Assembly (NCBI GenBank): GCA_003576845.1
Contig: QEVJ01000005.1
Coordinates: 1-64,000 of the forward strand
Length of the DNA stretch: 64,000 nucleotides
From: Planctomycetota bacterium
Lineage (GTDB): Bacteria > Planctomycetota > Planctomycetia > Pirellulales > PLA5
Reading direction: 5' to 3'
The stretch's first letter is position 1; every line of letters begins with the position of its first letter. Positions 1 through 47,313 of this stretch are shown in pieces. The position numbers and the translations under genes are program-made. Below the pieces are notes generated by a model that was given only the letters and a program-made list of their open reading frames with translations, searched no databases and had not been told where the DNA came from.

Positions 1-50
1 CGCCCCTCGCCCCGCGCCCCTCGCCCCGCGCCCCTCGCCCCTCGCCCCGC
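1..50. repeat. C-rich tandem repeat (14-bp unit)
   Basis: The first 50 bases are tandem copies of CGCCCCTCGCCCCG, the last one irregular. The tract lies about 75 bases beyond the stop codon of the PEP-CTERM gene. Similar words recur at 6394-6429 and 55831-55860, so this is one member of a dispersed tract family. The other strand is G-rich. Confidence 0.85.
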
Positions 51-126
51 AAACAAAAAGGCCCGGACCAGCCAAAGCCGATCCGGGCCGCAAGGGTTAT
101 GAACCAATCTCTCGGCGAGCCAAACG

Positions 127-2664
127 CTACGCCTTCTTCATCCGCCGCCGAGCCGCGAACAGCCCGATCACGCCCATCGAGACGAGGACGTAGGTCGAGG
201 GTTCGGGGACGAGGCTCCACGAAAGGATTTCGTGACGGTTGTTAGCCCCGCCGGTACCGGCGGTGAAGCCGGCGTAAATCTCGTCGTATGCGTTGCCGAG
301 CAACGCCGGGAGGTCGACTGTGGTGGTCAGCGTCGGCAGGGCCGGCTTGACATCGTCCGGCGAGAAAAAGACATCCATGACCTTGGTCGCTCCGTCGTAC
401 TCGACCCACACGAAATAGTCGCCGCCGTCATTGAACCGCGGGATCATTGCGCGGGCGACCGAGTTCGGGCCGAGATGGGCGTTGTTCGAACTGTCGATGC
501 CGATGTGGACCTGACCGGCAGTGACGCCGCCGTCGAACGAGCCGCCGCCCCAGGTATCCAATTCGATCGCGACAAAGTTCGCCGAGATACCATCGACGCC
601 AATTGCGCCGCCGGCGCCGCCGACGACCGCAGCGCCTCGCGGGCCGGTCGTCAACACAAACGTCAAACCATCAGCGCCGGGACCGTTGGTCGCAGGACCA
701 GCAGGACCGCCGCCGGCCGGAAGCGAAATCTCGAACGCAAACTTCGTCTTGAAGTTGAAGTCCCGTTGCAGGGCAACCGGAACGTTCAGCATTGCGCTGC
801 CCGCCTGGTTGTTGATGTTGTCCGTCAATCGCAATCGGCCGTCGACAATGCCCGCGGTGCCGGTGCCGTTGAATTGGAAGATTCCTTCCTGACCCGTGAA
901 ATCCGAAAACGCGAATTCCGCGGGAACGACTTCGTACGGTGCGGACGACGACTCTTGCGAGTCGAAGGACCAAGAGCGAAGCTCGGCGGTATGATTCGCC
1001 CCGCCCGTACCGCCGGCGAAGCCAAGGTACACGTCGTTGCCAGTGAAGATGCCGCGGAGGTCGATTCGCTGCGAGATCGTCGCCGACGCGGGCTTAATGT
1101 TCGTCTCGGAAACGTACACGTCCATCATGTCGGTCTTGCCGTCGTAGTCGACCCACACGTTGCGCGTAGGCGCGTTCGAGACGGCGGTCCACTGCGGAAT
1201 CGCACCGGCCGCCGATTGCTCGACGCTGAAGCGAGCCCCCGACGTGTTAATCGCAATGTGGTTGCCGTTCGTGTTCGCGTTTGCGGCCACATCCCACGAA
1301 CCGCCATGCCATGTATCGAGCTCGACAAATACGGCGGGCCCGACCGTTGGATTATTGACCACAGTGTTCGGCGCGACGCCGGCAACGCCCAAACCGCCGC
1401 CACCAGAACCCGCAGCCACGGCGCCGCGCGGATCCTGATGAAGCATAAAGACCACACCGTCGGCGCCCGGATTATCGCCGCAGCAATCCGTGCCGGCGCC
1501 GTTATTCATGCGGACCTCGAATTGCGTGCTGAACGACAAGTCATCCGCCAGCGTAACCGGTTTGTTGAGATAAACGGTACCCGATTGGTTGTTGATGTTC
1601 GGCATGATGCGAGCGACCGGAGCACCGTCGACCGTATCGGTGCTCGGAATCGCCGAACCGTTAAATACGAGCGAATTAACTGCCGTCGCGGCGTTGCCGG
1701 CGTTAAACTCGAACGGCAACGAGTGCGTCCCGGAAGGCGGCATAAAGCTGATGCCATAACGGTTTGAGAGATATCCTTCGACCGACATGCGATCCGCGTC
1801 GCTAAGGGCTTGGTCAAAGATAATCACCTCAGCGATATCGCCCAGATAACCTTCCGACCAACCGGAAATTCGGCTACCGAGTGCAAACTGGGCGGAAGCG
1901 TTGCTGCCGGTCTTCAACTGGTGGGCCGGTGCGACGGGGACAGTATTCGTGCCTTGAAGATCAACGAGCCCGGCATTCATTCCATTGACCCACATACGAT
2001 CGGCGCCGGCGCGGCCAATGCCCGCGAGGAAATCGTTGTCGTAGGTGAACGTGACGACAGAGGGTCGCGCGCTGGAAGCGACCGAGCCGTTGTCGACGCC
2101 GCCCCAATAGTGATTGGAAAACGTTCGCGTACCGCCAGCCGCCGCGAGAACGCCATAAGAGAAGTCGTTCGTGGCGGAACCCCAATGCAACACGTGTTCA
2201 ATACCGTTCGTGGCCGGCCGCGGCATGATATTGTTGACAACCGCGAACACCGTGCGGTCGCTGTTGCCGACAGCAGGCTGGGGAACGCCCGTCGCCGCGC
2301 TGCCCGGCAAGCCGTCGACTGTACGGCGCAGGAAGTCATTCGAGCCGTCGAACCGAATGGCCGGCATGTTGTTAAGCGCCGGAACCGAGGCGATGAACGT
2401 CGGCTGGTTCGCTGCCGTCGGGTGCGTGACATCGCGGTTGGTGTTAAGCGCGATGTCCGACAGGTCGTCCCATTGAGCTACGGTCGCGCCATTGAGCGTG
2501 ACGCCGGAATCCGCTCGAAACCAAGCGGTCAAGTTCGGGTCTCCCGGAGTAGGTACGCCGCCGATGCCAAGAATCACGGCTTGCGCCGACGTCGCACAAC
2601 CGACGTAAATTGCGCCGGCTAGGAGCCATTTCGCGCTCCGAGCAAAGAGTTTTCTCGCATTCAT
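127..2664 (-). CDS. PEP-CTERM protein with LamG-like and two L-type lectin-like domains
   Basis: Exported protein of 845 residues. An Arg/Lys-containing N-terminus and hydrophobic stretch ending near TSAQA make a signal peptide. A concanavalin A/LamG-like domain follows (about residues 45-305, containing LTAWFRADSG and a C-terminal DRMSVEGYLSNRYGI block). Then come two related lectin-like domains with matching motifs (GADGVVFML...FVELDTW and GADGLTFVL...AIELDTW). The C-terminus is a PEP-CTERM tail: VPEPSTYVL, hydrophobic segment, then ARRRMKK, which in this family is the exosortase sorting signal. I chose the ATG at 2664 because the upstream reading frame is low-quality sequence and the signal peptide begins here. 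The ligand is unknown; carbohydrate binding is inferred from the fold only. Confidence 0.85.
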   Translation of the reverse strand: MNARKLFARSAKWLLAGAIYVGCATSAQAVILGIGGVPTPGDPNLTAWFRADSGVTLNGATVAQWDDLSDIALNTNRDVTHPTAANQPTFIASVPALNNMPAIRFDGSNDFLRRTVDGLPGSAATGVPQPAVGNSDRTVFAVVNNIMPRPATNGIEHVLHWGSATNDFSYGVLAAAGGTRTFSNHYWGGVDNGSVASSARPSVVTFTYDNDFLAGIGRAGADRMWVNGMNAGLVDLQGTNTVPVAPAHQLKTGSNASAQFALGSRISGWSEGYLGDIAEVIIFDQALSDADRMSVEGYLSNRYGISFMPPSGTHSLPFEFNAGNAATAVNSLVFNGSAIPSTDTVDGAPVARIMPNINNQSGTVYLNKPVTLADDLSFSTQFEVRMNNGAGTDCCGDNPGADGVVFMLHQDPRGAVAAGSGGGGLGVAGVAPNTVVNNPTVGPAVFVELDTWHGGSWDVAANANTNGNHIAINTSGARFSVEQSAAGAIPQWTAVSNAPTRNVWVDYDGKTDMMDVYVSETNIKPASATISQRIDLRGIFTGNDVYLGFAGGTGGANHTAELRSWSFDSQESSSAPYEVVPAEFAFSDFTGQEGIFQFNGTGTAGIVDGRLRLTDNINNQAGSAMLNVPVALQRDFNFKTKFAFEISLPAGGGPAGPATNGPGADGLTFVLTTGPRGAAVVGGAGGAIGVDGISANFVAIELDTWGGGSFDGGVTAGQVHIGIDSSNNAHLGPNSVARAMIPRFNDGGDYFVWVEYDGATKVMDVFFSPDDVKPALPTLTTTVDLPALLGNAYDEIYAGFTAGTGGANNRHEILSWSLVPEPSTYVLVSMGVIGLFAARRRMKKA

Positions 2665-8794: not shown

Positions 8795-8830
8795 CCGTCG
8801 CGGCTAGACCCCCGCGACGGTTTTTCTTTT
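8795..8830 (+). terminator. intrinsic terminator
   Basis: A perfect 9-bp stem CCGTCGCGG (8795-8803) / CCGCGACGG (8812-8820) with an 8-base loop is followed by TTTTTCTTTT. It lies about 150 bases after the HTH-receiver gene and just before the end of the convergent MFS gene. Confidence 0.9.
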
Positions 8831-8931
8831 GACGGAGGTCCGCGTTGGCTCGTGCGGATGGCATCGTGGCGCTTCGGTGCCGTGTCCGCCATCCTGCGGA
8901 GCATGATGGCTACTTTGGTTCGGAATGCGAT

Positions 8932-10224
8932 TTACCGCTCGTTTGGCGGCAGGGGGTCGATGCCGAGCCACAGCGCGCCGCCGGTGACGCTAATCGCGCA
9001 AGCGACGCCGAGCGCGACACTCCAGTCGAATCGCGTCATCAGCACGGCGGTAAGCCACGGCGCGAGCGCGCCGCCCGCGTTGCCGAACGTGTTGAGAAAC
9101 GCCGCGGCGACGCCGGCATGTTGTCCTCCCAGGTCGGTGACGGTCGTCCAAAACACGCCTTCGCACGCTCCCAACGAGGCCAGAGCCAGCGAGAACCACA
9201 ATACGACGCGATCGGGATCGGTCGTTGCAATACCGAGAATCGCGAACGCGGCGCTTGCCGACATACCGCCAACCGCCACGGCACGCCGTCCACTGGCTTC
9301 GCCCCAGCGGCGACACAGGGAATCGGCCAGCCAACCACCGCACACCATGCCGCCGGCCATCGCGAGCATCACGATCGACGAAGCCGCACGGCTGTACTCG
9401 TCCGACAGTTGCAGCGTATGGCTGAAATAGTGCTCGATCCAATAAAAGAACAAGTATTGAAAGTACCCGACGGCCGCGTAGCTGAGCGAAATCAGGACCA
9501 GACTTCGGTCGCGAATCAGGGCGCATGCTCCGCGTGCCGCAGTCGGTGGCCGCAAAGGAGCGACGGCGATCGCCTGCGGATCGGATTCCTCCCGAAGTGC
9601 GGACGGCGTCCTTCCGCCGCTTTCCCCATTTGCGGCGACGAACCTCCACACGCACGCGAAAGCAACCATCGCCGCGCCGCAGATTACGAACGCATATTGC
9701 CACGTGAAGCGGTCCAGCAGCGCGCCGAATACCGGATAGGATCCGGCGATGCCGAGGAGCGCGCCCGCCGTCACGATGCCGTTGGTGCGGCTGCGCATGC
9801 CCGACGGAAACCATAGCGACACGCAACGCGCCGCCGCCGGATGCAGCGGCGAGCTCGCCGCGCCTGCCGCACCGCGCACGAACGCGAGCGATAGCCAAAG
9901 CCCTGCCGCCGAAGGACCCAAGCCAACGATGCCGGTAAGGGCGACGCAAAGTCCCATGCCGAGCGCCATGCAGGCGAGCGCGGTCGTCGGGCCGAACCGG
10001 TCGATGAACCAGCCCGCGGGCAACATGCACGCCGTATAGACGAGCAGGAACACTGTGTAGATTTGCCCCATCGACACTTCGTCGATCAGCCCGTCGCGAA
10101 TGAATCGCTCGTTTCCGGCGACCGAAATGCTAACCCGATTGAAGTGGCCCAGGCAGACCAACGTCGCCAGCAGCAGCAAGAGCAACCAGCGCCGGCGGAA
10201 TGATTGCGGGGAATCGGGGACCAT
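8932..10224 (-). CDS. MFS transporter (anion:cation symporter-like)
   Basis: A 430-residue integral membrane protein with about 12 hydrophobic segments, beginning with a basic N-terminus (FRRRWLLLLLLATLVCLGHF). The segment FNRVSISVA after TM1 and the MFS A-loop-like motif AGWFIDRFGP after TM2 point to the major facilitator superfamily. The closest general resemblance is to the anion:cation symporter (hexuronate/glucarate) group. Substrate cannot be read from the sequence. Neighbours are on the opposite strand, so it is transcribed alone. The start is the ATG at 10224, directly before the basic N-terminus. Confidence 0.8.
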   Translation of the reverse strand: MVPDSPQSFRRRWLLLLLLATLVCLGHFNRVSISVAGNERFIRDGLIDEVSMGQIYTVFLLVYTACMLPAGWFIDRFGPTTALACMALGMGLCVALTGIVGLGPSAAGLWLSLAFVRGAAGAASSPLHPAAARCVSLWFPSGMRSRTNGIVTAGALLGIAGSYPVFGALLDRFTWQYAFVICGAAMVAFACVWRFVAANGESGGRTPSALREESDPQAIAVAPLRPPTAARGACALIRDRSLVLISLSYAAVGYFQYLFFYWIEHYFSHTLQLSDEYSRAASSIVMLAMAGGMVCGGWLADSLCRRWGEASGRRAVAVGGMSASAAFAILGIATTDPDRVVLWFSLALASLGACEGVFWTTVTDLGGQHAGVAAAFLNTFGNAGGALAPWLTAVLMTRFDWSVALGVACAISVTGGALWLGIDPLPPNER

Positions 10225-10513
10225 CGAACGCAGCCCTGACGTTTATGGACGTTCGGCGACACGTGGCGCCGCTCGATTGGACGCCGTTCGCGATGCTGCA
10301 CCATACAATTTATCACACCACGGGGGTATTCTTGGGCACATACGGGCACGGTCGCGATGTTTCCGGCGTGGACAACGGGCGCGCTTCGGGCAAAAAGCGA
10401 AGAGATGGCCGCATTCGCCGGTTCCAACCGCATTGGCGATGTACCCGGTGACCTTGATGGATTCCTTGGTTGCGCGGACCGCCGAGTATTCGGTTCTTAT
10501 CGAGGGTGGGCGC

Positions 10514-10536
10514 CACTGCTGGCTTGCCCAGCAGTG
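10514..10536. repeat. palindromic element, family C (CACTGCTGG hairpin)
   Basis: A perfect 9-bp inverted repeat CACTGCTGG/CCAGCAGTG with a 5-base loop. Two more half-copies follow in opposite orientations: CACTGCTGGGCTAG at 10570-10583 and CTAGCCAGCAGTG at 10686-10698. Those two could pair with each other across about 100 bases. Confidence 0.75.
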
Positions 10537-10623
10537 AGAACGGCCGTTTGACTGTTGCCTCGCGAATCGCACTGCTGGGCTAGTCGTCCGTCTCTGCGAA
10601 TTTGATAGGCGATAGCACTCGTA

Positions 10624-10643
10624 GGACGGATTGCAATCCGTCC
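10624..10643. repeat. palindromic element, family B copy 1
   Basis: A perfect 20-base palindrome, GGACGGATTGCAATCCGTCC, preceded by TA. The same element with one inserted A is at 28505-28525. Confidence 0.8.
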
Positions 10644-10749
10644 CACAGTGCCGCCAGCACTTGTCGGTCTCATCTAGACAGAGCACTAGCCAGCAGTGGC
10701 ACCCCAATTCTTAGCGTCGACGAACCAAGCGCTTTCCCGAGGCGACCCC

Positions 10750-10777
10750 TTCGCAATCCGCCGTGCTGTCCTACAAT
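10750..10777 (+). promoter_or_regulatory. possible promoter for moaC
   Basis: TTCGCA (10750-10755), 16-base spacer, TACAAT (10772-10777). The -10 element is good and the -35 element weak. It ends 35 bases before the moaC start codon. Confidence 0.4.
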
Positions 10778-10812
10778 GATCGGAACCACTTTCCGCAAGC
10801 CACCTTGCGCAC

Positions 10813-11292
10813 ATGGCTGAGCTATCGCACTTCGACGCATCCGGCGCGTCGCGCATGGTCGACGTCGGCGCCAAGGCAGTCACGGCGCGCCAGGCTAGGG
10901 CTTCGGCGCGGGTGCGAATGCTCGCCGAAACGGGCCGGCTCGTGCGCGACCGCAAGATGGCCAAGGGGGACGTGCTGGAAGTCGCGCGGCTCGCCGGAAT
11001 TCAGGCCGCCAAACGGACCTGGGAGTTAATTCCGCTTTGCCATCCCCTGCCGCTCGACGGGGTGGACCTGCGGCTCGAATTCGAAAACGACGAGGTGCTG
11101 GCCATCGAGGCCACGGCGCGGGCAACGGCCCGGACCGGGGTCGAGATGGAAGCCCTCACGGCGGCGTCGGTCGCGGCGCTGGCCGTTTACGACATGTGCA
11201 AGGCCGTCGATCGCGGCATCACGATCGAGCGAATCCGCCTGGAGGAGAAATCGGGCGGGAAGAGCGGACATTTCACGAGGAACGACGCATGA
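10813..11292 (+). CDS. moaC: cyclic pyranopterin monophosphate synthase MoaC
   Basis: A 159-residue protein of normal MoaC length. It acts in molybdenum cofactor synthesis, converting the cyclised GTP product of MoaA into cyclic pyranopterin monophosphate. Signature motifs are [15 protein letters not shown] and [20 protein letters not shown] followed by CKAVD. The N-terminal [14 protein letters not shown] block is also typical. The stop codon overlaps the start of the prenyl synthase gene by four bases (ATGA), so the two are probably co-translated. No other moa gene is in the window. Confidence 0.95.
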
Positions 11293-12365
11293 CGCCCGCC
11301 GTACCAACGACCGCGCCCACGACGACCGCGCCCTCGAAGAGCGCAACGAAGCTCTCGGCGGCGGCTGGGCCGGAAGCGATTCCGGCCGACACCCGCGCGG
11401 CGCTCGCGGCGCTGTACGCTCCCATTCGCGACGAGCTATCGGCGGTCGACGATCGCTTGCGGAGCGAGCTTCAGAGCCGATATCCGTTCATTGACGAGCT
11501 GGTCAAGCACGCGTTTCGCCTGGGCGGGAAGCGGCTGCGGCCGGCGCTGTTGCTGCTCTCGGCCAAGAGCGTCGGCCAGGTGCGCGACGAGCATATTACG
11601 CTCGGCGCGGTCATTGAAATGATCCACACCGCGACGCTCGTTCACGACGACGTGCTCGACGAGGCGAAACTGCGGCGGCACGTCGACACCGTCAACGCCC
11701 GCTGGGATAACGAAGCGAGCGTGCTCTTGGGCGACTACCTGTTCTCGCACGCCTTCTACCTGGCGGCCACGACCGGCAGCACGCTGGCCTGCCAGATCAT
11801 CGGGCGGGCCACGAACATCACCTGCGAAGGCGAACTGCGCCAGGTTCGCGCCGGCGGCGACTTGCAGCTTGCCGAGACCGAGTATCTCGGGATCATCGAA
11901 GCGAAGACGGCGGAACTCTGTGCGTGCGCGTGCGAATTGGGCGCTCACTACGCCGGCGGCGACGACGCAGCCGCGGCGGCGCTGGCCGCGTATGGGCGAA
12001 ACCTGGGCATCGCCTTCCAGATCGCCGACGACCTGTTGGATCTCGTCGGCGAGGAAAACGCCGTCGGCAAATCGCTCGGCACCGATCTGGAAAAACGCAA
12101 GGCCACGCTTCCGGTAATCCATTTGCTCGCAAATGCCACGGCCGGCGACCGGGCGACGATCGAAGCGATTCTCACACGGCCCGACAATCACCGCGTCGCC
12201 GATATGTTGCCGTGGCTGGAACGGTATCGGTCGTTCGCATACGCCCGCGGAAAGGCCCGCGACTTTGCGGCGGCGGCGGTTGCGAGCCTTCAAGAGCTTC
12301 CGGCGTCGGTCGAACGCGACGTGCTGGCGCAGATGGCGGGGTTCGTGGTTAGCCGCGATCGGTAG
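11289..12365 (+). CDS. long-chain polyprenyl diphosphate synthase (IspB/HepT-type)
   Basis: A 358-residue trans-prenyltransferase that adds isopentenyl diphosphate units to an allylic primer, usually to make the side chain of quinones. The two Asp-rich motifs are present: DDVLD (about 120-124) and DDLLD (about 247-251). Others are [19 protein letters not shown] and a GEL..QVRAGGD region. An N-terminal Thr/Pro/Ala-rich stretch of about 45 residues is extra. The start is the ATG within the ATGA overlap with moaC. A second, short-chain-type enzyme is at 23447-24343. Chain length cannot be set with certainty by eye. Confidence 0.88.
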
Positions 12366-12376
12366 ACGGCATATCG

Positions 12377-12439
12377 CGTAGCGGAACTCGCCAAGAGTTC
12401 CGATGCTCGTTCATCGGAAGTCTTGCGACTTCCGCTACG
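12377..12439. repeat. REP-like palindromic element, family A copy 2
   Basis: Outer arms CGTAGCGGAA (12377-12386) and TTCCGCTACG (12430-12439) are perfect. Nested inside are two hairpins, GGAACTC-GCCAA-GAGTTCC and GGAAGTC-TTGC-GACTTCC. It fills the 81-base gap between two convergent genes and could serve as a bidirectional terminator. Confidence 0.8.
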
Positions 12440-12446
12440 AGCGTCG

Positions 12447-12875
12447 TCAGATGTAGTACATGTTCTCGACGCCGCCGCGGGCGCGGGCGACGAGATCGGC
12501 GAGCGAGACGTTGGCGAGCATTTCCCGCTCCGCGGCATCGATTTCCGCCCAGGTCGCCCGCAAGGCATAAACCGCGGGCGAATCGCGCAAGCCGCTGCGC
12601 GTCGATTCCGATTCCGCGCCTTCGATCACGGCGATCACGTCGGCGAGCGAGATGTCGTCCGGCGCGCGGGCAAGCTGATATCCGCCGGCCGAGCCGCGCG
12701 TGCTCGTCACGAGTCCGGCGACTTTGAGCTGCAAGAGAATCTGCACCAGAAACCGCGGCGGAATGCCGTGCGCCTCGGCGACGTCGCGAATCCGCACCGG
12801 CTCGTCGGCGTTGTGACTCGCCGCAAGCTGCAACATCGCCAGGCAAGCGTACTCGGTTTTGGCGGAAACGCGCAT
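12447..12875 (-). CDS. Rrf2-family transcriptional regulator
   Basis: A 142-residue winged-helix regulator. The N-terminal MRVSAKTEYACLAMLQLA, the helix IRDVAEAHGIPPRFLVQIL and the wing STRGSAGGYQLARAPDDISL are classic Rrf2 features. The three cysteines that bind Fe-S in IscR/NsrR are missing: the region after residue 85 has no Cys. It may therefore be of the CymR type, which in Firmicutes controls sulfur genes. It lies just downstream of cysH on the same strand, which supports a role in sulfur control but does not prove it. Confidence 0.88.
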   Translation of the reverse strand: MRVSAKTEYACLAMLQLAASHNADEPVRIRDVAEAHGIPPRFLVQILLQLKVAGLVTSTRGSAGGYQLARAPDDISLADVIAVIEGAESESTRSGLRDSPAVYALRATWAEIDAAEREMLANVSLADLVARARGGVENMYYI

Positions 12876-12886
12876 GGCAAAGTTTC

Positions 12887-13007
12887 AAGGCTCAAGTTTC
12901 AAGGTTCGAATAAGGTCGAAGGTTTAAGGCTCAGACCGGCTTTCGAGGGTTAAGGCCGCTTAAGCCTTGATTCTTAAGCCTTATTTGAACCTTGAAACTC
13001 GAGCCTT
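12887..13007. repeat. long inverted repeat of AAGGTTC-like words
   Basis: Two 29-base arms (12887-12915 and 12979-13007) are inverted repeats with two mismatches. They are separated by 63 bases that contain further TTAAGGC/GCCTTAA words. The element fills the gap between cysH and the Rrf2 gene. It could form a large hairpin in the transcript. Confidence 0.85.
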
Positions 13008-13018
13008 AGAACTTGCAG

Positions 13019-13912
13019 CTACAGTCCCGTCGCTCGCGGCGCCGCTTCGTCGTTGGCGCTCGCGGCTTCCAACGAATGCAGCCCGCATTCCGTCTTCGCG
13101 AACCCGCTCCAGCGGCCGGCGCGTTCGTCTTCGCCGAACATCACTGCCCGCGTGCAGGGCCAGCAGCCGATGCTCGTGTAGCCTTGATCGTGCAATGGGT
13201 TGTATGGGATGTCGAGGTCGGTGATCAGCTTCCAGACGTCTTGCTTGGTCCAGTTGGCCAGCGGGCTGACCTTTACGAGGCCAAACTTCTTGTCCCAGCC
13301 GACGATCGGCGCCTTCGCCCGGTCCGGACTTTGGTCGCGGCGAATCCCGCTCATCCAGGCGTCGAAACCGACGGCGGCCTGCTGGAGCACTTTCACTTTG
13401 CGGTCGAAGCAGCACCGGTCGGGCTGCGTCTTGTAGAGCGGGCCGCCGTGGAAGGCTTCGTACTGGGCGACGGATAGCTCGGGTTGCTTCATTTCGACTT
13501 CGATCCCGTAGCGCCGCTTGATCCGCTCGCGAAGTTCGAGCGTCTCGGCGAATTGGTAGCCCGTATCCAGGTTGAAGACGTGAACGCGCGGCTCGACTTC
13601 GGCGAGGTAGTGCAAAATCACACAGCCTTCCGGGCCGAACGCCGTGGCCATGGTCAGCTTGGGAAAATAGCGTTCCACGGCCCAAGCGAGGATTTCCTTG
13701 GGAGTGGCCGATTCCAGCCGGTCGCTGTCGCGGCGAAGCTGGTCGAGCAGTTCCGGCGTGGGAACAGGGACTGAGGGCTGGGGGCTGGGGGATTCGGGAT
13801 TCGGGATTCGGGATTCGGGGGCTGCGGTCGCTGAATGTGCCGCGACTGGGCCTGTGCCAAGAACCGGCGTAATGCTTTCGGTGTCGGCAGATACGGGTGG
13901 CGTGCTGGGCAT
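13019..13912 (-). CDS. cysH: assimilatory adenylyl-sulfate (APS/PAPS) reductase CysH
   Basis: A 297-residue protein that reduces activated sulfate to sulfite. It has the [4Fe-4S] cysteine pairs typical of APS-reducing enzymes (RCCFDRKVKVL and IGCWPC), the SGIRRDQSPDRA motif, LDTGYQFAET and the C-terminal catalytic ECGLH. The cluster suggests APS as substrate. The start was chosen because a strong promoter overlaps the upstream in-frame ATG at 14005, leaving the ATG at 13912 as the first usable start. Residues about 33-50 are a Pro/Glu/Ser linker translated from an ATTCGGG-type repeat tract (13775-13821), absent from ordinary CysH. The neighbouring Rrf2 gene is a plausible regulator. Confidence 0.9.
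   Translation of the reverse strand: MPSTPPVSADTESITPVLGTGPVAAHSATAAPESRIPNPESPSPQPSVPVPTPELLDQLRRDSDRLESATPKEILAWAVERYFPKLTMATAFGPEGCVILHYLAEVEPRVHVFNLDTGYQFAETLELRERIKRRYGIEVEMKQPELSVAQYEAFHGGPLYKTQPDRCCFDRKVKVLQQAAVGFDAWMSGIRRDQSPDRAKAPIVGWDKKFGLVKVSPLANWTKQDVWKLITDLDIPYNPLHDQGYTSIGCWPCTRAVMFGEDERAGRWSGFAKTECGLHSLEAASANDEAAPRATGL
13775..13821 (+). repeat. G-quadruplex-type repeat (ATTCGGG)n inside cysH
   Basis: The plus strand reads GGG, GGGGG, GGGGG, then four ATTCGGG words and a final G run. It has more than four runs of three or more G separated by 2-4 bases, so it meets the usual G-quadruplex pattern. It lies on the template strand of cysH and is translated into a PESRIPNPES-type linker. 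Confidence 0.85.
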
Positions 13913-36396: not shown

Positions 36397-39300
36397 ATGC
36401 GCCGATTGTTGCCTAAGCGTCCCGCCACCAACTATGTTCGCCGCCGGCGTCGTTCCTTCGGACTGGAGCCGCTGGAAGGCCGGCTTGTGCTGGCGGCGCC
36501 GGTGGGCGTGACCGACGTTTACCCCTTGGCGGAAGACACGAGCGTCAGCAGCCTGCCCACGGCGTTCGAGGCGCACTTTGACAATGCGAATCCGCCGATC
36601 ATCAGTAGCGGCGCGGCTTGGAGCTATTTGGACCAGATCCAAAACGAGTTCGGAGCGAACCAAACGTATCCGGTCGACGGGGCTTCGCGGGCGTGGAACT
36701 CGCCGAATTTCGACGTTAGCACGTCGACGATCGGGCCGTGGGGCGCAGCAAACTCGCCGCTGCAAGGCGGGACGATCGACGGGTTTCCCGGCGCTCCGGC
36801 AACGCTGACGGGGTTGGGCGGCGGGACGGGCGGGAACAACATCGTTACCACCTATCTGTTCCGCCGGACCGTTTCGCTCACGGCGGCACAAGCCGCGAAC
36901 ACCGCCGCGTCGATTCGCTGGCTCTTCGACGATGGCGGAGTGATCTACATCAATGGCGTCGAGGTTTCTCGACAAAACATGCCCGCCGGCGCGATCACGA
37001 CGACCACGTTCGCGCCCGCCGTGGGGAACGAGTCGACTTACACAACGACCGCGTTCACGATTCCCGCCGGCGTGCTCGTCGCCGGCAACAACACCGTCGC
37101 CGTCGAGGTCCACCAGAACGCCTCGACGAGCAGCGACGTTGGATTCGACCTCGAAATGACGCTCGGCACGGCCGGCGGCGATACCGAAGGTTTTGCCTAC
37201 GCCGACGATGCCTTTAACACGAATAACCCCAATCGCGCTTCCGGCGCGTATGAGCCGACTGGGGGATTTAGTGGCGGCGGTCTGAGCGTCGCGCTCGAAC
37301 ATACGGAAGGAGGCGGGGCGGGCGCGGCGAAGTCGGGGGCGTGGGTTCGGTCCTTCAATCTGCCGGCCGCTTCGACCATCGACATCAGCGTCCGCTATCG
37401 GCTCACCGCAAGCTCGCAGATCGAAAACAACGAGTACGGCGAAGCGGTGCTGACGATCGACGGCACCCGTTACGGCACGGGGCCCAACTCGTCGCTGGCG
37501 CGCGTCGTCGGCGACGGCAACGGCGGCGCGATTCACGACACGGGCTGGCAACTGGCGACATTCAGCATTCCCCTCGCAGCGGGCGACCACACACTGCGCC
37601 TCGGCGGCTACAACAACGGCACCTCCGCGGCGGACGAATGGGCCGAGGTCTTTTTCGACGACGTCGTCGTGGGCGGCGGCACCGGCGCTTCGGGTGTCCT
37701 GCTCAACGACACCGATGCCGACGGCGATCCGCTCACGGCCGAGAAACTCACCGATCCGGCGAACGGCACACTCGTATTCAACGCAAACGGCACGTTCGTC
37801 TACACGCCGAACCCCAATTATTTCGGCATCGACACGTTCACGTATCGCCCGTTCGATGGCACGAGTTTCGGAAACGCGACGACGGTCGTGTTCAATATCA
37901 GCGCGGTGAACGATCCGCCGGTTGCGTTTTCCGAATCGTATGCCACGGCGACCGACCAGACGCTCGTCGTGCCGGTAGAGCAGGGCGTGCTGGCCAACGA
38001 CACGGACGTCGACAACGCGACGCTAACCGCCGTGCTCGTCGGCAACGTCGCCAATGGGACGCTGAACTTGAACGCGGACGGATCGTTCACGTACACGGCG
38101 AACGCTGGATTCGTGGGAGTCGACTCGTTCAGTTACCGCGCGAGCGACGGCCAGGCTCAGAGCGGGCCGATCACCGTGTCGATCAACGTCACGGCCGTGA
38201 ACACCGCGCCGACGGCGAACGACGACGCTTATCAGATCGACGAGAACAATACACTGTCGATCACGAAGAGCGGCGCCGTCCCCCCGCAGCAGGTTTTCTA
38301 TTCCAACTTCGATGCAGGCGTGCCGGCGCAGTTTACCGGTTCGGGCGCGTCCGAGGGTGTCCAGGGCTTCGGCGACGTGGGCACGGGCACGAACACGTTC
38401 GCCGGCAACTTCTTGCGGAGCACAGCCGACAACAGCGGTAGCGGCCCAGCCACGCCGATTACGCTGACGCTCACGAACCTGCCCGCGCACACGTCGGTCG
38501 ATCTCAACTTTCTGCTGGCGATCATCGACTCGTGGAACGGCAACAGCGGATTCGGCTCGCCGGACCTGCTCAACGTCAGCATCGACGGTGCGACGATCTT
38601 TTCCGAGACGTTCGACACCGCGAACTCGCAGGACCAGTCGTATAGTTCGCCCTCCGGCGTGCGGCTTATCGACGGCGAACAGCTCGGTTTCAGCACCGGC
38701 GGCAACTCGGTCGACGCCGCGTACAACATGTACCTGGAGCCGCGGTTCCAGGGCCTTCCGCATACGGCCTCGACGCTGACGATCGAATGGTTCGCGAGCG
38801 GTCAGGGCTGGGGCGGCGGGACGGACGAGTCGTTCGCCATCGACAACGTCGAGGTGATTCTCAACCTTGAAGAAAGCAACGAAGTCACATTGATCCCGGC
38901 CGGCGCAGTTTGGCGGTATCTCGACAACGGATCGGATCAGGGCACGGCGTGGCGCAATCCCGGCTTCAACGATGCGTCGTGGAATTCCGGCCCGGCGGAG
39001 CTCGGCTACGGCGACGACGCCGAAGGCCGCCCGGAAGCGACGGTGATCGGCTTCGGCGGCGATCCAGCGAACAAATACATCACGACCTATTTCCGCCGCA
39101 CGTTCGACGTAACGAACGTCACGTCGGTTACGTCGCTCACGCTCGAGCTGATGCGCGACGACGGCGCCGCGGTGTTTCTCAACGGAGTGGAAATCGCCCG
39201 CGACAACCTCCCCGCCGACGCGGCGTATAACACGTTCGCGTTCGGCGCGATCCCCAATTTCGACGAGTCGCAGTTCTTCACCTTCGCGGTCGATCATTCG

Positions 39301-42300
39301 CTGCTCGTCGAGGGGACGAACACGATTGCCGTCGAAGTGCATCAGGCCGATCCGGGCAGCAGCGACTTGAGCTTCGACCTGCGGCTCACGGCGACCGAGT
39401 CATCGGACCTGGGCGTGCTGGCCAACGACGTCGACCTCGAAGGGGCGTTGCTCTCGGCCCAACTGGTCGACGACGTCGATAACGGCACGCTCGCGCTCAA
39501 CTCCGACGGGACATTCACGTACACCCCTAACGCCAATTACCACGGCACGGATTCGTTCACGTACCGGGCAAGCGACGGTTTCCTCACCAGCAACGTCGCG
39601 ACCGTGACGATCACGATCATTCCCGGGCCGAACGAACCGGCGGTCGCGGTCGACGACATTTATTCGGCGACGGAAGACACGCCGCGCGTCGTTTCGGCCT
39701 TGGCAGGCGTCTTGTCCAACGATTCCGATCCCGAGGACGATCCGCTCGTCGCGGAACTGGTGGCGCAAGCGGCCGGCGGCACGGTGGTACTGGCCACCGA
39801 CGGCGGGTTCACGTACACGCCGAACCCCAACTTCTTCGGCGCCGATTCGTTCACCTATCGCGTCTACGACGGCACGGATTACTCGAACGTCGCGACCGTG
39901 ACGCTGAACGTCGCCGGGACGAACGACGTGCCGGTCGCCGTGAACGACATGTACTTCGCCGAGTTCGGCGGGCAACTCGTCGTCGGCGCCGCGGTCGGCG
40001 TGACGGCGAACGACCAGGACCTCGATCTACAGGGCTTGACGGCGGCGCTCGTCGCCGGGCCAAGCCACGGCAGTTTGACGCTCAACGCCGACGGCTCGTT
40101 CGTCTACACGCCGAATCCGACGTATCGAGGACCGGATAGCTTCACCTATCGAGCCTCGGACGACGACGATGCGTCGAACGTGGCGACGGTTTCGATTGTG
40201 GTCGATAGCACGCCCGTGGCGAACGCCGATGTGTACACCGTCGCCGAAGAAGGGACGTTGAACGTAACCGTCGGCCAGGGCGTGTTGATCAACGACACGG
40301 ACGGCGATCTCGATCCGCTCACCGCGTCGCTCGTGGTCGGACCGGCCAACGGTATGCTCTCGTTCGTCAGCAACGGCTCGTTTGTCTATACGCCGAACGT
40401 CAACTTCAACGGGCAAGATACATTCACCTATCGGGCGAACGACGGGGACCAGTCCTCGAACGTCGCCACCGTCACGATCACGGTTACGCCGGTGAACGAC
40501 GCGCCGACGGCGGTGGCCGATTCGTACTCGCTGTTCGCCAACGACACGTCGATCGTGAACGCGGCGAACGGCGTGCTGGCCAACGACTTCGACGTCGATG
40601 GTCCGGCGCTGTCCGCCGTTCTCTTGGGCGACGTGGCGAGCGGTACACTCGTCTTGAATGCGGACGGCTCGTTCACTTACACGCCCGATGCCGATTTCAT
40701 CGGGACCGATTCGTTCATCTACGGCGCCTCGGACGGAACATTACTCTCGTCGGCGGTGATGGTGACGCTCACGGTCAATCCGGCGTCGCAGTTGATCGCG
40801 ATCAACGAAATCATGTATCACCCGCAGTCGGAAAACGACGCGGAAGAGTGGATCGAGCTATTCAACACCGGCACGTCGAACGTGAATCTTGCCGGGTGGC
40901 AGTTCACGAACGGCGTTTCATATATCTTCCCGGCCGGGCCGCAGACCGTGCTCGGCGGAAGGCAATATCTGGTCGTCGCCGCGGACGCGGCGACGTTCTC
41001 ATCGACGCATCCGGGCTTCGCGGGCACAGTCATCGGCGGCTGGACCGGGTCGCTGAGCAACAGCGGCGAAACCGTCGAGCTTTCGGATGCCTCCGGCGAG
41101 CGCGTGGACCGGGTGGAATACTCGGACCAGGGCGATTGGGCCACGCGCGTGCCCGGGCCGCTCGACAACAACCATCGCGGCTGGGACTGGGAAGCGCTGC
41201 ACGACGGCGGCGGACGAACGCTCGAACTCATCAACGCCGAATTGTCGAACAACCAGGCGCACAACTGGAGTTCGAGTGCGGCAAACGGCGGGACGCCCGG
41301 CGCGGCCAACTCGATCGTTTCGGCGAACATCGCGCCGATGATTTCGGGCGTGATGCACTCGCCCGCCGTGCCGCGATCAACCGATCCCGTGACGATTACG
41401 GCCGAACTCCGCGACGAACTCGACACGGGCGTTTCGGCGTCGGTGTTCTATCGCTTGTCGACGGCCAGTCCCGGTCCGTTTACGCAGGTCGTCATGTTCG
41501 ACGACGGGCTGCACGGCGACGGCGACGCGAACGACGGCGTGTTCGGCGCGACGATTCCGCTGCAAGGACCGGACGCGGTGGTCGAGTTCTTCGTGCGCTC
41601 GCAGGACGTGGGCGGGAATGCGCGAACGTATCCGATGGCGAACGACAACGGTTCGCAAACGTTTCCGCGGCTGTTGTACCAGGTGGACGACGAAGTTTGG
41701 ACGGGCGAGCAGCCGATTTACCGCATCGTGATGACGGCGGCCGAGGCCAACGAGTTCCAGAACATCAACCGCAACAGCAACGCGCAGATGAACGCCACGT
41801 TCGTGGCCGTCCGCGGCGCCGATACGTCGGTGACCTACAACGTCGGCGTTCGCGTCCGCGGGGCGTCGAGCCGCGATCGCGACCCGCCGGGTTTACGGGT
41901 GAACGTGCCGCACGATCGTCCCTGGAGCGGGAAGACGTCGTTCAACCTCAATACGCGATACACGTGGCTGCAAACGCTCGGGGCGGCGCTGTTTCACATG
42001 GCCGGCTTGCCTGGGTTCACGGCCACGCCGGTCCAGGTGCGGATGAACAGTGTCAACCGGGCCACGAACAACGCCCAGGCCGGTTCCTACGTTCACGTCG
42101 AGGTGATCGACAACGAATGGGCGTCGGACCACTTGCCGGACGACGACCAGGGGAACGTCTACACGAAGCGCCGGCCGGACAACCAGCTCGCCTATCGCGG
42201 CAGCGCGACCGCGCCGTACTACAACCCAGCCACCGACCCGCAGGATTACCTCAACGACGGCTGGGAGAAGAAGACGAACGAGTCGGAGAACGATTGGAGC

Positions 42301-45300
42301 GATCTCAACGAGATGCTCCGGGTGCTTCGCGAGATCGATCCCGCGCCGGGCGTAAGCTATTTCGACCGGCTCAACGCGATCATTGAAGTCGACCAGTGGA
42401 CGCGGTACTTCGCGCTGATGGTGCTGATGAACAGCCGCGAGACGAGCATCTCCAACGGCGCGGACGACGATTACGACATCTACCGCGGCGTAGTCGATCC
42501 GCGGTTCATACTCGTGCCGCACGACCTGGATACGATTTTCAACCAGGGCGATACGAGCACCAACCCGACGGCGACGATCTTCCAGCCGATCGACACGAGC
42601 TTCGCCGGAACGGCCCTTTCCGTGCTGGTCCCGTTCTTCCAGGATCCGAAGATCGTGGGAATGTACTACGGGCACTTGCGCGATTTGATCGATACGGTCT
42701 TTTCGCAAACGCAGCTCAACGCGCTCATCGACAATCTGTTTGGCGGCTGGATCGACGCCAATACGATCGCCAATCTCAAGACGTTCGCCGACCAGCGGCG
42801 GGCGCACGTGAATTCGCTGCTCCCGGCGAGCCTGACGGTGTCGTCGAACCTGCCGACCGTGAATGGCTATCCGCAGACGACAAATCCGTCGACCGCGTCG
42901 CTCAGCGGCGTCGCGAACGCCGCCGAAACGCGGAAGGTGCTCGTGGCGGGCAATCAAGTGGGTTGGGATGCGTTCAACCGCACGTGGTCGACCGCCGGCT
43001 CGACCGCCACGACCGACACGTTGATCCCGTTCGGCGCCACGTGGCGGTATCTGGCCGACGGCACGAACCAGGGCACGGCGTGGAGCGCGCCGGGTTTCGC
43101 CGACGGCGGTTGGGCATCAGGTCCCGCGCAGCTCGGCTACGGCGACGGCGACGAAGCGACCGTCATCAACTGCGGTCCCAGCGCGCCGCAGTGCAATCAG
43201 AACAACTTCATCACGACCTACTTCCGGCACTCGTTCAACGTCGCCAATCCGAGCCAGTATTCCTCGCTGACGCTGCGGTTCCGCCGCGACGACGGAATCG
43301 CAATCTACATCAACGGGACGGAAGTCGCGCGGAACAACCTCGCGGCCGGAGCGACGTTCGACCAGGGCGCCAGCAACGCGACGGACGACGGCAACAGCAT
43401 CTTCGACGTCGTCAACATTCCGGTCAGCCTGTTGAGCGCGGGCAACAACGTCATCGCCGCCGAGGTTCATCAGCAAAGCGGCAGCAGCAGCGACGTGACG
43501 TTCGACCTGTCGCTGCTCGCGCTCGTGCCGAGTCCCGGAGCGACGATTCCGCTCAACCCAGGCATCAACCGCGTGCTCGTGCAGGCGCTGGGCGAAGGCG
43601 ACGTGGAACTCGAACGCCGCACGATCGACATCTGGTACGACGACGGCACGACGACCGACGTCTCTGGCGCGCTAGCTGCGAACACGGTGTGGAGCGCCGC
43701 GAGCGGTCCGTATCGCGTCACCGGCAACGTCACCGTACCCGCGGGAGTTACCTTGACGATTCAGCCCGGCACGAGCGTGTTCTTCGATCCGGGGACGAGC
43801 TTGACCGTGAGCGGCCGGCTGGTGGCGAACGGAACCGGGTTGTCGCACATCCACATGGGAGTTACTCCCGGCACGACGGGCAAGTGGAACGGCATCGCAT
43901 TCGCCAACACGACGCAGGCGAACCAGATGACCTTCGTCGACATGGCCGCGTCGGACGGCTCGGGCCAGTCGATCGCCGCCACGAACAGCACGATTACGCT
44001 CGACCGCATGACCTGGACGGGCGTCAACAGCACGGTGCTGGAGCTTACCAATTCCTCGTTCCGCGTGATGAACAGCGTCTTTCCGTCGCTTTCCGGCACG
44101 GCCGACGACGAGATCATTCACGGCAATGGAATCATGACCGCCGGCGTGGCGATCATCGACGGCAACACGTTCGGAACCGTGAGCGGCTACAACGACGTGA
44201 TCGACTTCACCGGCGGTCAGCGGCCCGGGCCGATCTTGCAAGTACTCAATAACACGTTCTTGGGCGGCAGCGACGACGCCCTCGATCTCGACGGAACCGA
44301 CGCCCACATCGAAGGCAACACGTTCCGCGGCTTTCACAAGAACAACGCGAGCGACTCGTCGAGCAACGCCATCGCGACCGGGATCGACGGCGGCGTCGCG
44401 TCGGAAATCACCGTCGTGCGGAACTTCTTCTACGACAACGACCACGCCGTGCTCGTCAAGGAAGGCTCGTTCCTCACGTTTCAGAACAACACGGTCGTCG
44501 GCAGCACGATCGCGGCGATCAACTTCGACGAACCGAATCGGCCGGTGCAGCCGGGCTTGGGCGCGCTGGTCGAAGGCAACGTGTTCACGGGTAACGCGGC
44601 CGATTTCGAGAACGTCTACGACAACCATCCGACCGAGGGCACGACGCAGCTTACGATCAACTATTCGCTCGTGGGCGCGGCGTACTTGAACCGCGGCGTA
44701 GGCAATCTCGACGCGGCGACGAACGCGGCCCGCATCGCCGACCCGGCGAATGGCGACTTCACGCTGGCTCCTGGCTCGGCGGCGAAGGGCACGGGCCCGT
44801 CAGGTCTGGACATGGGCGGCGCCGTCCCACGGTGGGCCACGATCGCCGGCGAACCCATCGGCGCGACGCCCAGCACGTCGGCAACGCTGTCGGTGTACGG
44901 TCCGGGCGTCGTGAGCTACTTCTACCGCGTGGACAACGGGGCTTGGAGTTCCGAGCGAAGCAGTGCCACGCCAATCGACGTGACGGGACTCGCGGCCGGG
45001 TCGCACACGATCTTCGTGACCGGGCGGAATTCGGCCAATCAACTGCAAGGATTCTCGACGCCTACCGCGTCGTCGAGCTGGACGGTCGATCCCACTGCCG
45101 CGTCGATTCGCATCAACGAGGTTCTGGCGTCGAACGGCACGGCGCTTCAAGTCGACGGTTCGTATCCGGATGTCATCGAGCTCTACAACTTCGGCAGCGC
45201 CGCGGTCGACGTGGGCGGTTGGACGATTTCCGACGATCCGGCCGAGCCCGCCCGATACGCGATTCCTGCCGGAACGTCCATTGCCGCCGGAGGATACTTG

Positions 45301-47313
45301 CTCGTATACGCGGGCGACGGGGTCGGCGAATTGTATACGGGCTTCGGGCTTTCCTCGACCGGCGAAACGCTCGCGCTCTATCGCAGCGCGGCCCAAGGCG
45401 GAAGCCTCGTTGACAGCGTCACGTTCGGCATTCAGCTAGCCGACTACTCGATCGGCCGCAACGCGGACGGCGCGTGGGTGCTCAATCGTCCGACGCTCGG
45501 CGCGGCGAACGTCGTGCAGCCGACGGGCGATCCGCGCCGGCTACGCATCAACGAGTGGCTCGCCGACAGCGATCGGCTGTTCCTCGACGATCGGCTGGAA
45601 CTCTATAATCCGGACACGCTGCCCGTGAACATGGCCGGCCTGCGGCTTACCGACAATCCGATCGGCAAGCCGGACAAGCATGAGATCGCGCCGTTATCGT
45701 TCGTGGCGGGAAGCGGGTTTGCGGCATTCATCCCGGACGAGCAGGGCAGCCGCGGCGCGGACCACCTCAACTTCGCGCTCGACGCGAACTACGAGATGAT
45801 CGCCCTGCTCGACGGCAATCTCGTGCTGCTCGACCAGGTGCTGTTCATGTCGCAAAAGCCGGATATCTCCGAGGGCCGGCTGCCCGACGGGCAATTGCCG
45901 CAGACGTTCATCTCGCCGCCGAACATCGGGCTGCCGAACGGCACGGTGCTGTCGGTGAACGACGTGCTCGATTATCTGCGGATCACGGAAATCCAGTACA
46001 ACCCGGCCGGTTCGAGCGACAACGACGAGTTCATCGAGCTCAAGAACATCGGCCCGGTGACGCTGAATCTCGACGGCGTGATCTTCCGCAACGGCATCGA
46101 CTTCGCCTTCCCGGCGATGACGCTCGCGCCGGGAGCGTTCGTGGTTGTGGTCGCTAATCAGTCCGCGTTCGAGGCCAAGTACGGCCCGGGCATCAACGTC
46201 GCCGGCACGTACACGAGCCGGTTGGACAACTCGGGCGAGAACATCGAGTTGTTCCTGGGCGGTTACTTCGAGGCCGAAATTCAGGACTTCACCTACGACG
46301 ACGCCTGGTATCCGACGACCGACGGCGGCGGGCCGTCGCTGGTCATCAAGGATCCGACCGGCCCGCTCGATTCGTGGCGGCTCGCTTCGGCGTGGCGGCC
46401 GAGCGGGACGCTGTTCGGTTCGCCGGGCATGGACGACCCGACGGACGGCATCCCGCCGACGGTGAACGAAGTCATCGTCGCCAGCAGCGCGTGGACCGGG
46501 CCGTTCGTGACGCAACTCGACATCCTCGGTCTCGGGCAGGGCGGCTATCGCGTGCCGATGGGCGCGGGTCAGTTGACACCGCTCACGTGGTCGAACGTCG
46601 ACGCCATCACGATCGTGTTCAGCGAGCCGGTCAACGTCACATCGACGTCGCTCACGGTTCACGGCGTCGCGTCGTCGCAGTACGCGGTTTCGAGCTTCTC
46701 GATGGACGGCAATCGGGCGACGTGGCGGCTGGCCAATCCGATTGCGGCCGACAAGATCAATCTCACGCTGCCCGGCACGATCACCGACGGCGCGGGAAAT
46801 CCGCTCGGCGCGGCATTCGGCTTCCGCTTGGATGTGCTGCCGGGCGACTTGAACGGCGACGGCGCGGTGAACGCGGCCGACGTGGCGACGGCGACGCCGA
46901 ACATGTTCGCAACGGCGGGCGCGACGCAGTACAATCCGCGGCACGACGTCAACGGGGACGCTCGCGTGAGCTTTACCGATGCGATCGCGCTTCGCAATCG
47001 GTTGGGCACGGCGCTGCCCGCGGGAAATCCGGGCGGAAGCCCCGGCGGAAGTCCGGCAGCAGCGGCGGTCGTCGTCACTCGTTCGGCGGCGCGGACGCAA
47101 GCGGCCGATGCGGCGATCGAGGGCGTTGCCGCTCTCCGCAACCGGGTGCGCGCGACCGCGCGGGGCGAGTTGATGGATATTCGGCGCGAGCCCGTCGGCG
47201 GATCGACGGCGAGCGGCGGCGAGAGCGCATCGACCGCCACGACGTTGCGAGCAAGACGAGCGCGGGCGTCGGCGAATCCGGCGAACCACGACGCGGCGCT
47301 CTCGGCATTTTGA
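36397..47313 (+). CDS. giant multidomain surface protein: cadherin-like, CotH kinase, lamin-tail and dockerin domains
   Basis: A 3638-residue protein. An Arg-rich N-terminus leads to SFGLEPLEGRLVLAA, the LEPR-XLL-type signature. Seven tandem-95/cadherin-like repeats follow (about 36490-40780), recognisable by GVLxND, GTLxLNADGSFTYTP and DSFTYRASDG. The first and third are interrupted by inserted galactose-binding-like modules. Next come a lamin-tail domain (LIAINEIMYHPQSE), a CotH-kinase domain (about residues 1774-2148, with HDLDTIF) and a third ITTYFRH-type module. A beta-helix region (about 2420-2800), three more lamin-tail domains, a beta domain, a dockerin pair (DLNGDGAVNAADV... DVNGDARVSFTDAI) and an Ala/Arg-rich tail complete it. 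CotH proteins phosphorylate or bind surface proteins in other bacteria; the role here is inferred only. Confidence 0.88.
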   Translation: MRRLLPKRPATNYVRRRRRSFGLEPLEGRLVLAAPVGVTDVYPLAEDTSVSSLPTAFEAHFDNANPPIISSGAAWSYLDQIQNEFGANQTYPVDGASRAWNSPNFDVSTSTIGPWGAANSPLQGGTIDGFPGAPATLTGLGGGTGGNNIVTTYLFRRTVSLTAAQAANTAASIRWLFDDGGVIYINGVEVSRQNMPAGAITTTTFAPAVGNESTYTTTAFTIPAGVLVAGNNTVAVEVHQNASTSSDVGFDLEMTLGTAGGDTEGFAYADDAFNTNNPNRASGAYEPTGGFSGGGLSVALEHTEGGGAGAAKSGAWVRSFNLPAASTIDISVRYRLTASSQIENNEYGEAVLTIDGTRYGTGPNSSLARVVGDGNGGAIHDTGWQLATFSIPLAAGDHTLRLGGYNNGTSAADEWAEVFFDDVVVGGGTGASGVLLNDTDADGDPLTAEKLTDPANGTLVFNANGTFVYTPNPNYFGIDTFTYRPFDGTSFGNATTVVFNISAVNDPPVAFSESYATATDQTLVVPVEQGVLANDTDVDNATLTAVLVGNVANGTLNLNADGSFTYTANAGFVGVDSFSYRASDGQAQSGPITVSINVTAVNTAPTANDDAYQIDENNTLSITKSGAVPPQQVFYSNFDAGVPAQFTGSGASEGVQGFGDVGTGTNTFAGNFLRSTADNSGSGPATPITLTLTNLPAHTSVDLNFLLAIIDSWNGNSGFGSPDLLNVSIDGATIFSETFDTANSQDQSYSSPSGVRLIDGEQLGFSTGGNSVDAAYNMYLEPRFQGLPHTASTLTIEWFASGQGWGGGTDESFAIDNVEVILNLEESNEVTLIPAGAVWRYLDNGSDQGTAWRNPGFNDASWNSGPAELGYGDDAEGRPEATVIGFGGDPANKYITTYFRRTFDVTNVTSVTSLTLELMRDDGAAVFLNGVEIARDNLPADAAYNTFAFGAIPNFDESQFFTFAVDHSLLVEGTNTIAVEVHQADPGSSDLSFDLRLTATESSDLGVLANDVDLEGALLSAQLVDDVDNGTLALNSDGTFTYTPNANYHGTDSFTYRASDGFLTSNVATVTITIIPGPNEPAVAVDDIYSATEDTPRVVSALAGVLSNDSDPEDDPLVAELVAQAAGGTVVLATDGGFTYTPNPNFFGADSFTYRVYDGTDYSNVATVTLNVAGTNDVPVAVNDMYFAEFGGQLVVGAAVGVTANDQDLDLQGLTAALVAGPSHGSLTLNADGSFVYTPNPTYRGPDSFTYRASDDDDASNVATVSIVVDSTPVANADVYTVAEEGTLNVTVGQGVLINDTDGDLDPLTASLVVGPANGMLSFVSNGSFVYTPNVNFNGQDTFTYRANDGDQSSNVATVTITVTPVNDAPTAVADSYSLFANDTSIVNAANGVLANDFDVDGPALSAVLLGDVASGTLVLNADGSFTYTPDADFIGTDSFIYGASDGTLLSSAVMVTLTVNPASQLIAINEIMYHPQSENDAEEWIELFNTGTSNVNLAGWQFTNGVSYIFPAGPQTVLGGRQYLVVAADAATFSSTHPGFAGTVIGGWTGSLSNSGETVELSDASGERVDRVEYSDQGDWATRVPGPLDNNHRGWDWEALHDGGGRTLELINAELSNNQAHNWSSSAANGGTPGAANSIVSANIAPMISGVMHSPAVPRSTDPVTITAELRDELDTGVSASVFYRLSTASPGPFTQVVMFDDGLHGDGDANDGVFGATIPLQGPDAVVEFFVRSQDVGGNARTYPMANDNGSQTFPRLLYQVDDEVWTGEQPIYRIVMTAAEANEFQNINRNSNAQMNATFVAVRGADTSVTYNVGVRVRGASSRDRDPPGLRVNVPHDRPWSGKTSFNLNTRYTWLQTLGAALFHMAGLPGFTATPVQVRMNSVNRATNNAQAGSYVHVEVIDNEWASDHLPDDDQGNVYTKRRPDNQLAYRGSATAPYYNPATDPQDYLNDGWEKKTNESENDWSDLNEMLRVLREIDPAPGVSYFDRLNAIIEVDQWTRYFALMVLMNSRETSISNGADDDYDIYRGVVDPRFILVPHDLDTIFNQGDTSTNPTATIFQPIDTSFAGTALSVLVPFFQDPKIVGMYYGHLRDLIDTVFSQTQLNALIDNLFGGWIDANTIANLKTFADQRRAHVNSLLPASLTVSSNLPTVNGYPQTTNPSTASLSGVANAAETRKVLVAGNQVGWDAFNRTWSTAGSTATTDTLIPFGATWRYLADGTNQGTAWSAPGFADGGWASGPAQLGYGDGDEATVINCGPSAPQCNQNNFITTYFRHSFNVANPSQYSSLTLRFRRDDGIAIYINGTEVARNNLAAGATFDQGASNATDDGNSIFDVVNIPVSLLSAGNNVIAAEVHQQSGSSSDVTFDLSLLALVPSPGATIPLNPGINRVLVQALGEGDVELERRTIDIWYDDGTTTDVSGALAANTVWSAASGPYRVTGNVTVPAGVTLTIQPGTSVFFDPGTSLTVSGRLVANGTGLSHIHMGVTPGTTGKWNGIAFANTTQANQMTFVDMAASDGSGQSIAATNSTITLDRMTWTGVNSTVLELTNSSFRVMNSVFPSLSGTADDEIIHGNGIMTAGVAIIDGNTFGTVSGYNDVIDFTGGQRPGPILQVLNNTFLGGSDDALDLDGTDAHIEGNTFRGFHKNNASDSSSNAIATGIDGGVASEITVVRNFFYDNDHAVLVKEGSFLTFQNNTVVGSTIAAINFDEPNRPVQPGLGALVEGNVFTGNAADFENVYDNHPTEGTTQLTINYSLVGAAYLNRGVGNLDAATNAARIADPANGDFTLAPGSAAKGTGPSGLDMGGAVPRWATIAGEPIGATPSTSATLSVYGPGVVSYFYRVDNGAWSSERSSATPIDVTGLAAGSHTIFVTGRNSANQLQGFSTPTASSSWTVDPTAASIRINEVLASNGTALQVDGSYPDVIELYNFGSAAVDVGGWTISDDPAEPARYAIPAGTSIAAGGYLLVYAGDGVGELYTGFGLSSTGETLALYRSAAQGGSLVDSVTFGIQLADYSIGRNADGAWVLNRPTLGAANVVQPTGDPRRLRINEWLADSDRLFLDDRLELYNPDTLPVNMAGLRLTDNPIGKPDKHEIAPLSFVAGSGFAAFIPDEQGSRGADHLNFALDANYEMIALLDGNLVLLDQVLFMSQKPDISEGRLPDGQLPQTFISPPNIGLPNGTVLSVNDVLDYLRITEIQYNPAGSSDNDEFIELKNIGPVTLNLDGVIFRNGIDFAFPAMTLAPGAFVVVVANQSAFEAKYGPGINVAGTYTSRLDNSGENIELFLGGYFEAEIQDFTYDDAWYPTTDGGGPSLVIKDPTGPLDSWRLASAWRPSGTLFGSPGMDDPTDGIPPTVNEVIVASSAWTGPFVTQLDILGLGQGGYRVPMGAGQLTPLTWSNVDAITIVFSEPVNVTSTSLTVHGVASSQYAVSSFSMDGNRATWRLANPIAADKINLTLPGTITDGAGNPLGAAFGFRLDVLPGDLNGDGAVNAADVATATPNMFATAGATQYNPRHDVNGDARVSFTDAIALRNRLGTALPAGNPGGSPGGSPAAAAVVVTRSAARTQAADAAIEGVAALRNRVRATARGELMDIRREPVGGSTASGGESASTATTLRARRARASANPANHDAALSAF

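Follow-up and report, generated by a model that had tools for sequence, protein, structure and literature searches.

A giant protein with interrupted repeats

The 64-kb window (the whole stretch of planctomycete DNA analysed, 64,000 nucleotides) corresponds to contig 77 of a 289-contig draft genome of 7.05 Mb and contains an open reading frame that encodes a giant, putatively secreted protein of 3638 residues (Table 1). Pfam and NCBIfam scans assign to this protein Big_9 repeats (Big_9/tandem-95 profile matches lie above the curated cut-off, and Cadherin_5 matches as well), three lamin tail domains (LTD), a CotH domain and a type I dockerin near the C-terminus (residues 3482-3536, window 46840-47004; 32.9 bits against a cut-off of 22.9). 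The N-terminus consists of an arginine-rich stretch followed by LEPLEGRLVLA, which we take to be a motif of planctomycete secreted proteins, and the protein is presumably located at the cell surface. Also on the + strand, 93 bases downstream, lies a beta-lactamase/serine hydrolase family gene (PF00144; 47406-48701), a possible operon partner.

Table 1. Features of the giant protein and of its split and intact Big_9 repeats, in window coordinates
Feature	Residues	Position	Strand	Basis and remarks
Giant protein, putatively secreted	3638 aa	36397..47313	+	7 Big_9, 3 LTD, CotH, dockerin
R1 first half, strand A of Big_9 repeat	34-51	36496..36549	+	Directly behind LEPLEGRLVLA; PSSM 21.4
First GBD strand (FEAHFDN)	52-67	36550..36597	+	Model alignment; contiguous copies
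M module 1, nested in GBD	68-259	36598..37173	+	Profile match; predicted GH2 sugar-binding domain fold, Z about 11
Remainder of R1 GBD	260-429	37174..37683	+	Alignment A7; predicted MAM/CBM61-like fold, Z 11-13
R1 second half, GVLLNDTDADGD onward	430-500	37684..37896	+	Big_9 profile 22-92
R2, intact Big_9	506-598	37912..38190	+	Big_9 profile; Ig domain Z 11.9
R3 first half	604-622	38206..38262	+	PSSM 36.5, 0/20,000 shuffles; pLDDT 79-88
Second GBD-like module (VFYSNFD...)	631-827	38287..38877	+	No Pfam match; low pLDDT; missing from Verrucomicrobiota homologs
M module 2	832-998	38890..39390	+	Profile match; predicted GH2 sugar-binding domain fold, Z up to 13.5
R3 second half	1001-1074	39397..39618	+	Big_9 profile 20-93; predicted one domain with first half
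R4-R7, intact Big_9	1081-1460	39637..40776	+	Big_9 profile
M module 3	2209-2373	43021..43515	+	Profile match; outside Big_9 repeats, after CotH domain

A Big_9 profile of 93 positions, built within the present analysis, matches seven repeats, of which R2 and R4-R7 are intact and R1 and R3 break off after the first strand. It covers the intact repeats from model position 1 or 2 to 93 and aligns to R1 only from position 22 and to R3 only from position 20. In R1, DVYPLAEDTSVS (residues 40-51) is followed by a break after residue 51/52, and the repeat resumes at residue 433 with GVLLNDTDADGDPL (GVLLND); in R3, the break comes after DENNTLSI (615-622), at about residue 622, and resumption is at residue 1006 with GVLANDVDLEGALL (GVLAND). 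The halves are thereby separated by 381 residues in R1 and 383 in R3. Both short first halves score as first-strand motifs: the R1 motif (residues 34-50) has a PSSM score of 21.4, reached by 4 of 20,000 shuffles, and the R3 motif (604-620) a score of 36.5, reached by none of 20,000. The same layout is found in a same-genus ortholog (3627 aligned residues, 76% identity), and the R1 motif scores more strongly in orthologs and homologs than in the protein itself. These observations bear out the first-pass annotation, which had described two repeats interrupted at the same loop by modules of about 380 residues.

The same annotation had asked whether repeats 1 and 3 fold as single domains in structure predictions, which holds for R3 and rests for R1 on sequence and orthologs. 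Residues 34-607 and 605-1182 were modelled with AlphaFold2 from alignments restricted to the window and related loci. The first 20 residues of the R3 model reach pLDDT values of 88 and 79, and their strands match those of the intact R4. Because a contiguous solved Ig domain from a phage collar/neck protein (8fxr_P3 70-156) aligns with this model across both halves (85 residues at 1.5 A, Z 12.0, spanning model residues 2..474), the two halves of R3, with the first strand before the inserted module and the rest after it, form one Ig-like domain as modelled. The intact R2 matches the 8fxr_P3 domain at a comparable level (Table 1). The R1 first half was placed without confidence (pLDDT under 50), and the assignment of R1 as a split Ig-like domain is supported by its sequence, by the same-genus ortholog and by the homologs in which the motif is stronger.

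Nested modules within the split repeats

The R1 insert combines a galactose-binding-like module (GBD) with a module, here called M, that carries an ITTY motif. The GBD alignment starts at about model residue 21, ahead of M, so that residues 52-67 supply the first GBD strand, and a single module is aligned across model residues 21-396. Uninterrupted GBD copies in two relatives read FAAKFDTG/LDGFVYVDD and LAADFNS/GVDGFGYQDD, where the window has FEAHFDNANPP, then M, then GGDTEGFAYADD. These contiguous copies rule out a plain swapped tandem order in R1; the earlier description of two inserts with GBD and M in opposite order thus gives way to a two-level nest, Big_9[GBD[M]], in which M sits inside the GBD.

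The R3 insert consists of M and a different GBD-like module in tandem, the latter labelled from its sequence and by the first-pass annotation, with low pLDDT in the model. At the R3 position, M stands alone in the Verrucomicrobiota homologs and in one paralog, and the extra GBD-like module was, on the simplest reading, added in the lineage of the window.

M itself spans about 165 residues (alignment A1). Its predicted model is a jelly roll like that of the GH2 sugar-binding domain, with which about 138 residues superpose at 3.3 A (Z up to 13.5). Scanned alone against Pfam, M matched no family above the cut-off, and in the profile comparison with the GH2 sugar-binding family BetaGal_ABD2 fell below it (E 0.0014, 19.8 bits against 23). 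Both M and the GBD-like modules presumably bind ligands. At three further loci (L107, ORF 4588-13893, residues 255-445; L092, residues 322-522; and L106), other modules interrupt M near model position 50-60; the interrupting module at L107 is PA14-like by eye, and M thus also hosts insertions. Another nesting host, likewise recognized by eye, is an LTD with a GBD-like module inside it (L232 in genome G007, around ORF residue 501).

Recurrence in the genome and its relatives

The source genome has 124 strong Big_9 repeats. Splits in the A/B loop, the position interrupted in R1 and R3, number 30 by automatic assignment plus one assigned by hand, a count best read as about 30 since one case (L009) may conceal a degenerate repeat. 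A second loop, F/G, is split in nine repeats by automatic and four by hand assignment, to be read as 11-13 given weak last-strand scores in two of the hand-assigned cases. The inserts comprise M, C-type lectin, laminin-G, LDL-receptor-type propeller and GBD-like modules, all of which occur in the A/B loop specifically; C-type lectin (n=3, one just below the cut-off), laminin G (n=3) and the propeller are found without or beside M. At seven loci, five of them outside the genus (L112, L117, L119, L126 and L160) besides L079 and L081, M apparently occupies the A/B loop as well as the F/G loop of single Big_9 repeats, which are thereby split in three.

Among 83 repeats from 20 Big_9-rich loci in other planctomycete genomes, 75 are full, none is split in the A/B loop and one is split in the F/G loop; the difference from the 44 splits in the source genome is pronounced (Fisher p 1.6e-10), for a control sample that was picked via a junction profile and is not random. 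Run over 294 genomes of the phylum, this profile mostly produced outside matches that cover one side only, and thus no clean nesting count, whereas its matches in the source genome cover both sides. Beyond the genus, Roseibacillus and Akkermansiaceae (Verrucomicrobiota) show the n-M-B-B-n-M-B layout with the same seven repeats, and there the R1 first half lies straight behind the signal region.

M has undergone a large lineage expansion, with 126 copies in the 7-Mb source genome, at least 91 in the same-genus genome and few or none in most relatives. Of the copies in the source genome, 53 belong to Big_9 loci, about 41 of them nested. M thus often occurs outside Big_9 repeats and nesting is not needed for its function. 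The notion of the loop as a tolerated docking site holds in that unrelated folds fill it recurrently across the genome, and it needs widening in that the F/G loop is also used and the pattern is lineage-wide.

Probable split stalk domains and known systems

The modules would lie between rather than inside repeats if the short first halves were linkers or the end of a preceding repeat, and the R3 first half does adjoin R2 directly; the R1 first half was not placed by AlphaFold2. The R1 first half, however, has no preceding repeat here or in homologs, and although the R3 model was cut to exclude the preceding repeat, the first half is predicted with confidence and the two halves together align as one Ig domain. 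Array ends point the same way: 37 arrays were checked and no orphan first half was found among those with their end in view, the only two flagged terminal cases being a contig end and a continuing repeat. Disfavoured by the R3 model, the Ig-domain alignment and the array ends, a between-repeat arrangement is very unlikely. An assembly or frame artefact might be suspected in a draft of 289 contigs, but we regard it as practically out of the question: the frame is open throughout, composition is even, a search of the insert edges for direct repeats and composition steps found none marking an insertion, and the layout is repeated in a separate same-genus genome and in another phylum.

A more serious alternative is repeated copying of a single ancient composite, a Big_9 repeat carrying M in the A/B loop, in which case the loop would be no hot spot. 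A/B-nested copies do cluster on the M tree (INDEPENDENCE), needing 12 changes against 24.3 in shuffles (F/G-nested copies need 6); if well-supported branches alone are counted, no more than about two changes per loop are required; and the R1-R7 layout is common to Verrucomicrobiota. Against a single origin, AU tests reject one clade both for A/B-nested M (p 0.018) and for F/G-nested M (p 6.6e-6), a second loop is in use, and lectin, laminin-G and propeller modules enter the same loop, some without M. Such unrelated folds in one loop are a stronger argument for repeated insertion than the M tree, and we judge the ancient composite unlikely, though the least so of these alternatives. As to the two inserts of the window, which the first-pass annotation had taken for independent insertions into one loop, the shared loop is upheld; their independence is likely but unproven, since a sister relationship of the two nested M modules is not rejected (AU p 0.17).

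The first beta strand, a ligand-binding insert and then the rest of the domain follow one another in the RTX adhesins FrhA of V. cholerae, MpIBP of M. primoryensis and AhLap of A. hydrophila (PDB 9ybq, 6x5v), which is the topology modelled for R3 and supported by sequence for R1. In such adhesins, the ligand-binding domain exits an Ig-like split domain after the first strand and is thereby projected from the stalk (PMC10865825, PMC12077191). Given this shared topology, we favour a display of recognition modules. We consider it probable that R1 and R3 are split Big_9 stalk domains and that the lineage recurrently uses the A/B loop, and to a lesser extent the F/G loop, as a display port, which several unrelated recognition folds fill. 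Points against this reading are the low pLDDT of the R1 first half, the lack of a Pfam match above the cut-off for M and the frequent occurrence of M away from Big_9 repeats. The chain would form the first strand, exit via the A/B loop, build one or two carbohydrate-binding-like modules and return to complete the sandwich. The intact repeats would make up a stiff stalk, presumably stiffened by calcium, from which the nested modules would bud sideways because both of their ends are anchored in one domain, presumably toward glycans or other ligands.

A broader and more tentative possibility, to which we give somewhat less than even weight, is that the A/B and F/G loops constitute a general exchange port, into which lectins, laminin G, propellers, GBD-like modules and M are swapped and nested to give a combinatorial repertoire across dozens of surface proteins with one stalk design. 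Split domains serve as a marker of ligand-binding domains in adhesins (PMC12077191). If this rule holds here, about 30-44 candidate ligand-binding modules of the genome escape domain scans, since standard annotation shows nothing but truncated repeats, and the frequency and independence of whole-domain uptake by one loop become directly countable. Our literature search found no paper on Big_9-type splits in planctomycetes and, as far as it reached, the planctomycete setting, the number per genome, the second loop and the insert variety are new.

Among known families, R2 and R4-R7 are ordinary Big_9/Cadherin_5/tandem-95 members (PF17963, NF012211), and R1 and R3 become members once the insert is skipped; unlike R1 and R3, such repeats in the sampled loci of other planctomycetes showed no A/B-loop splitting. 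M shares its predicted fold with the sugar-binding domain of GH2 enzymes (beta-galactosidase/glucuronidase), with a weak sequence link, and unlike that domain has no adjacent catalytic domain. Structural alignment pairs 93 residues of the intact R2 with the FrhA chain containing the split domain (chain 23..338; 30% identity, Z 10.9). The Big_9 profile gives weak hits to the sequence of 9y9w/9ybq (E 0.09) and to ice-binding (antifreeze) adhesin chains, for example 6x5v (E 0.05), which we take to be MpIBP. By domain content, the giant protein is nonetheless no RTX adhesin: it combines LTD, CotH and dockerin domains, the Pfam and NCBIfam scans gave no match to an RTX family (calcium-binding nonapeptide repeats), and its C-terminal region has the dockerin. 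For a module nested inside an already nested one, the vWFA insert of AhLap is the one published parallel. Compared with the RTX adhesins, the planctomycete system is thus distinguished by tens of splits per genome, the use of two loops, a three-level nest, many kinds of insert and its occurrence in another phylum.
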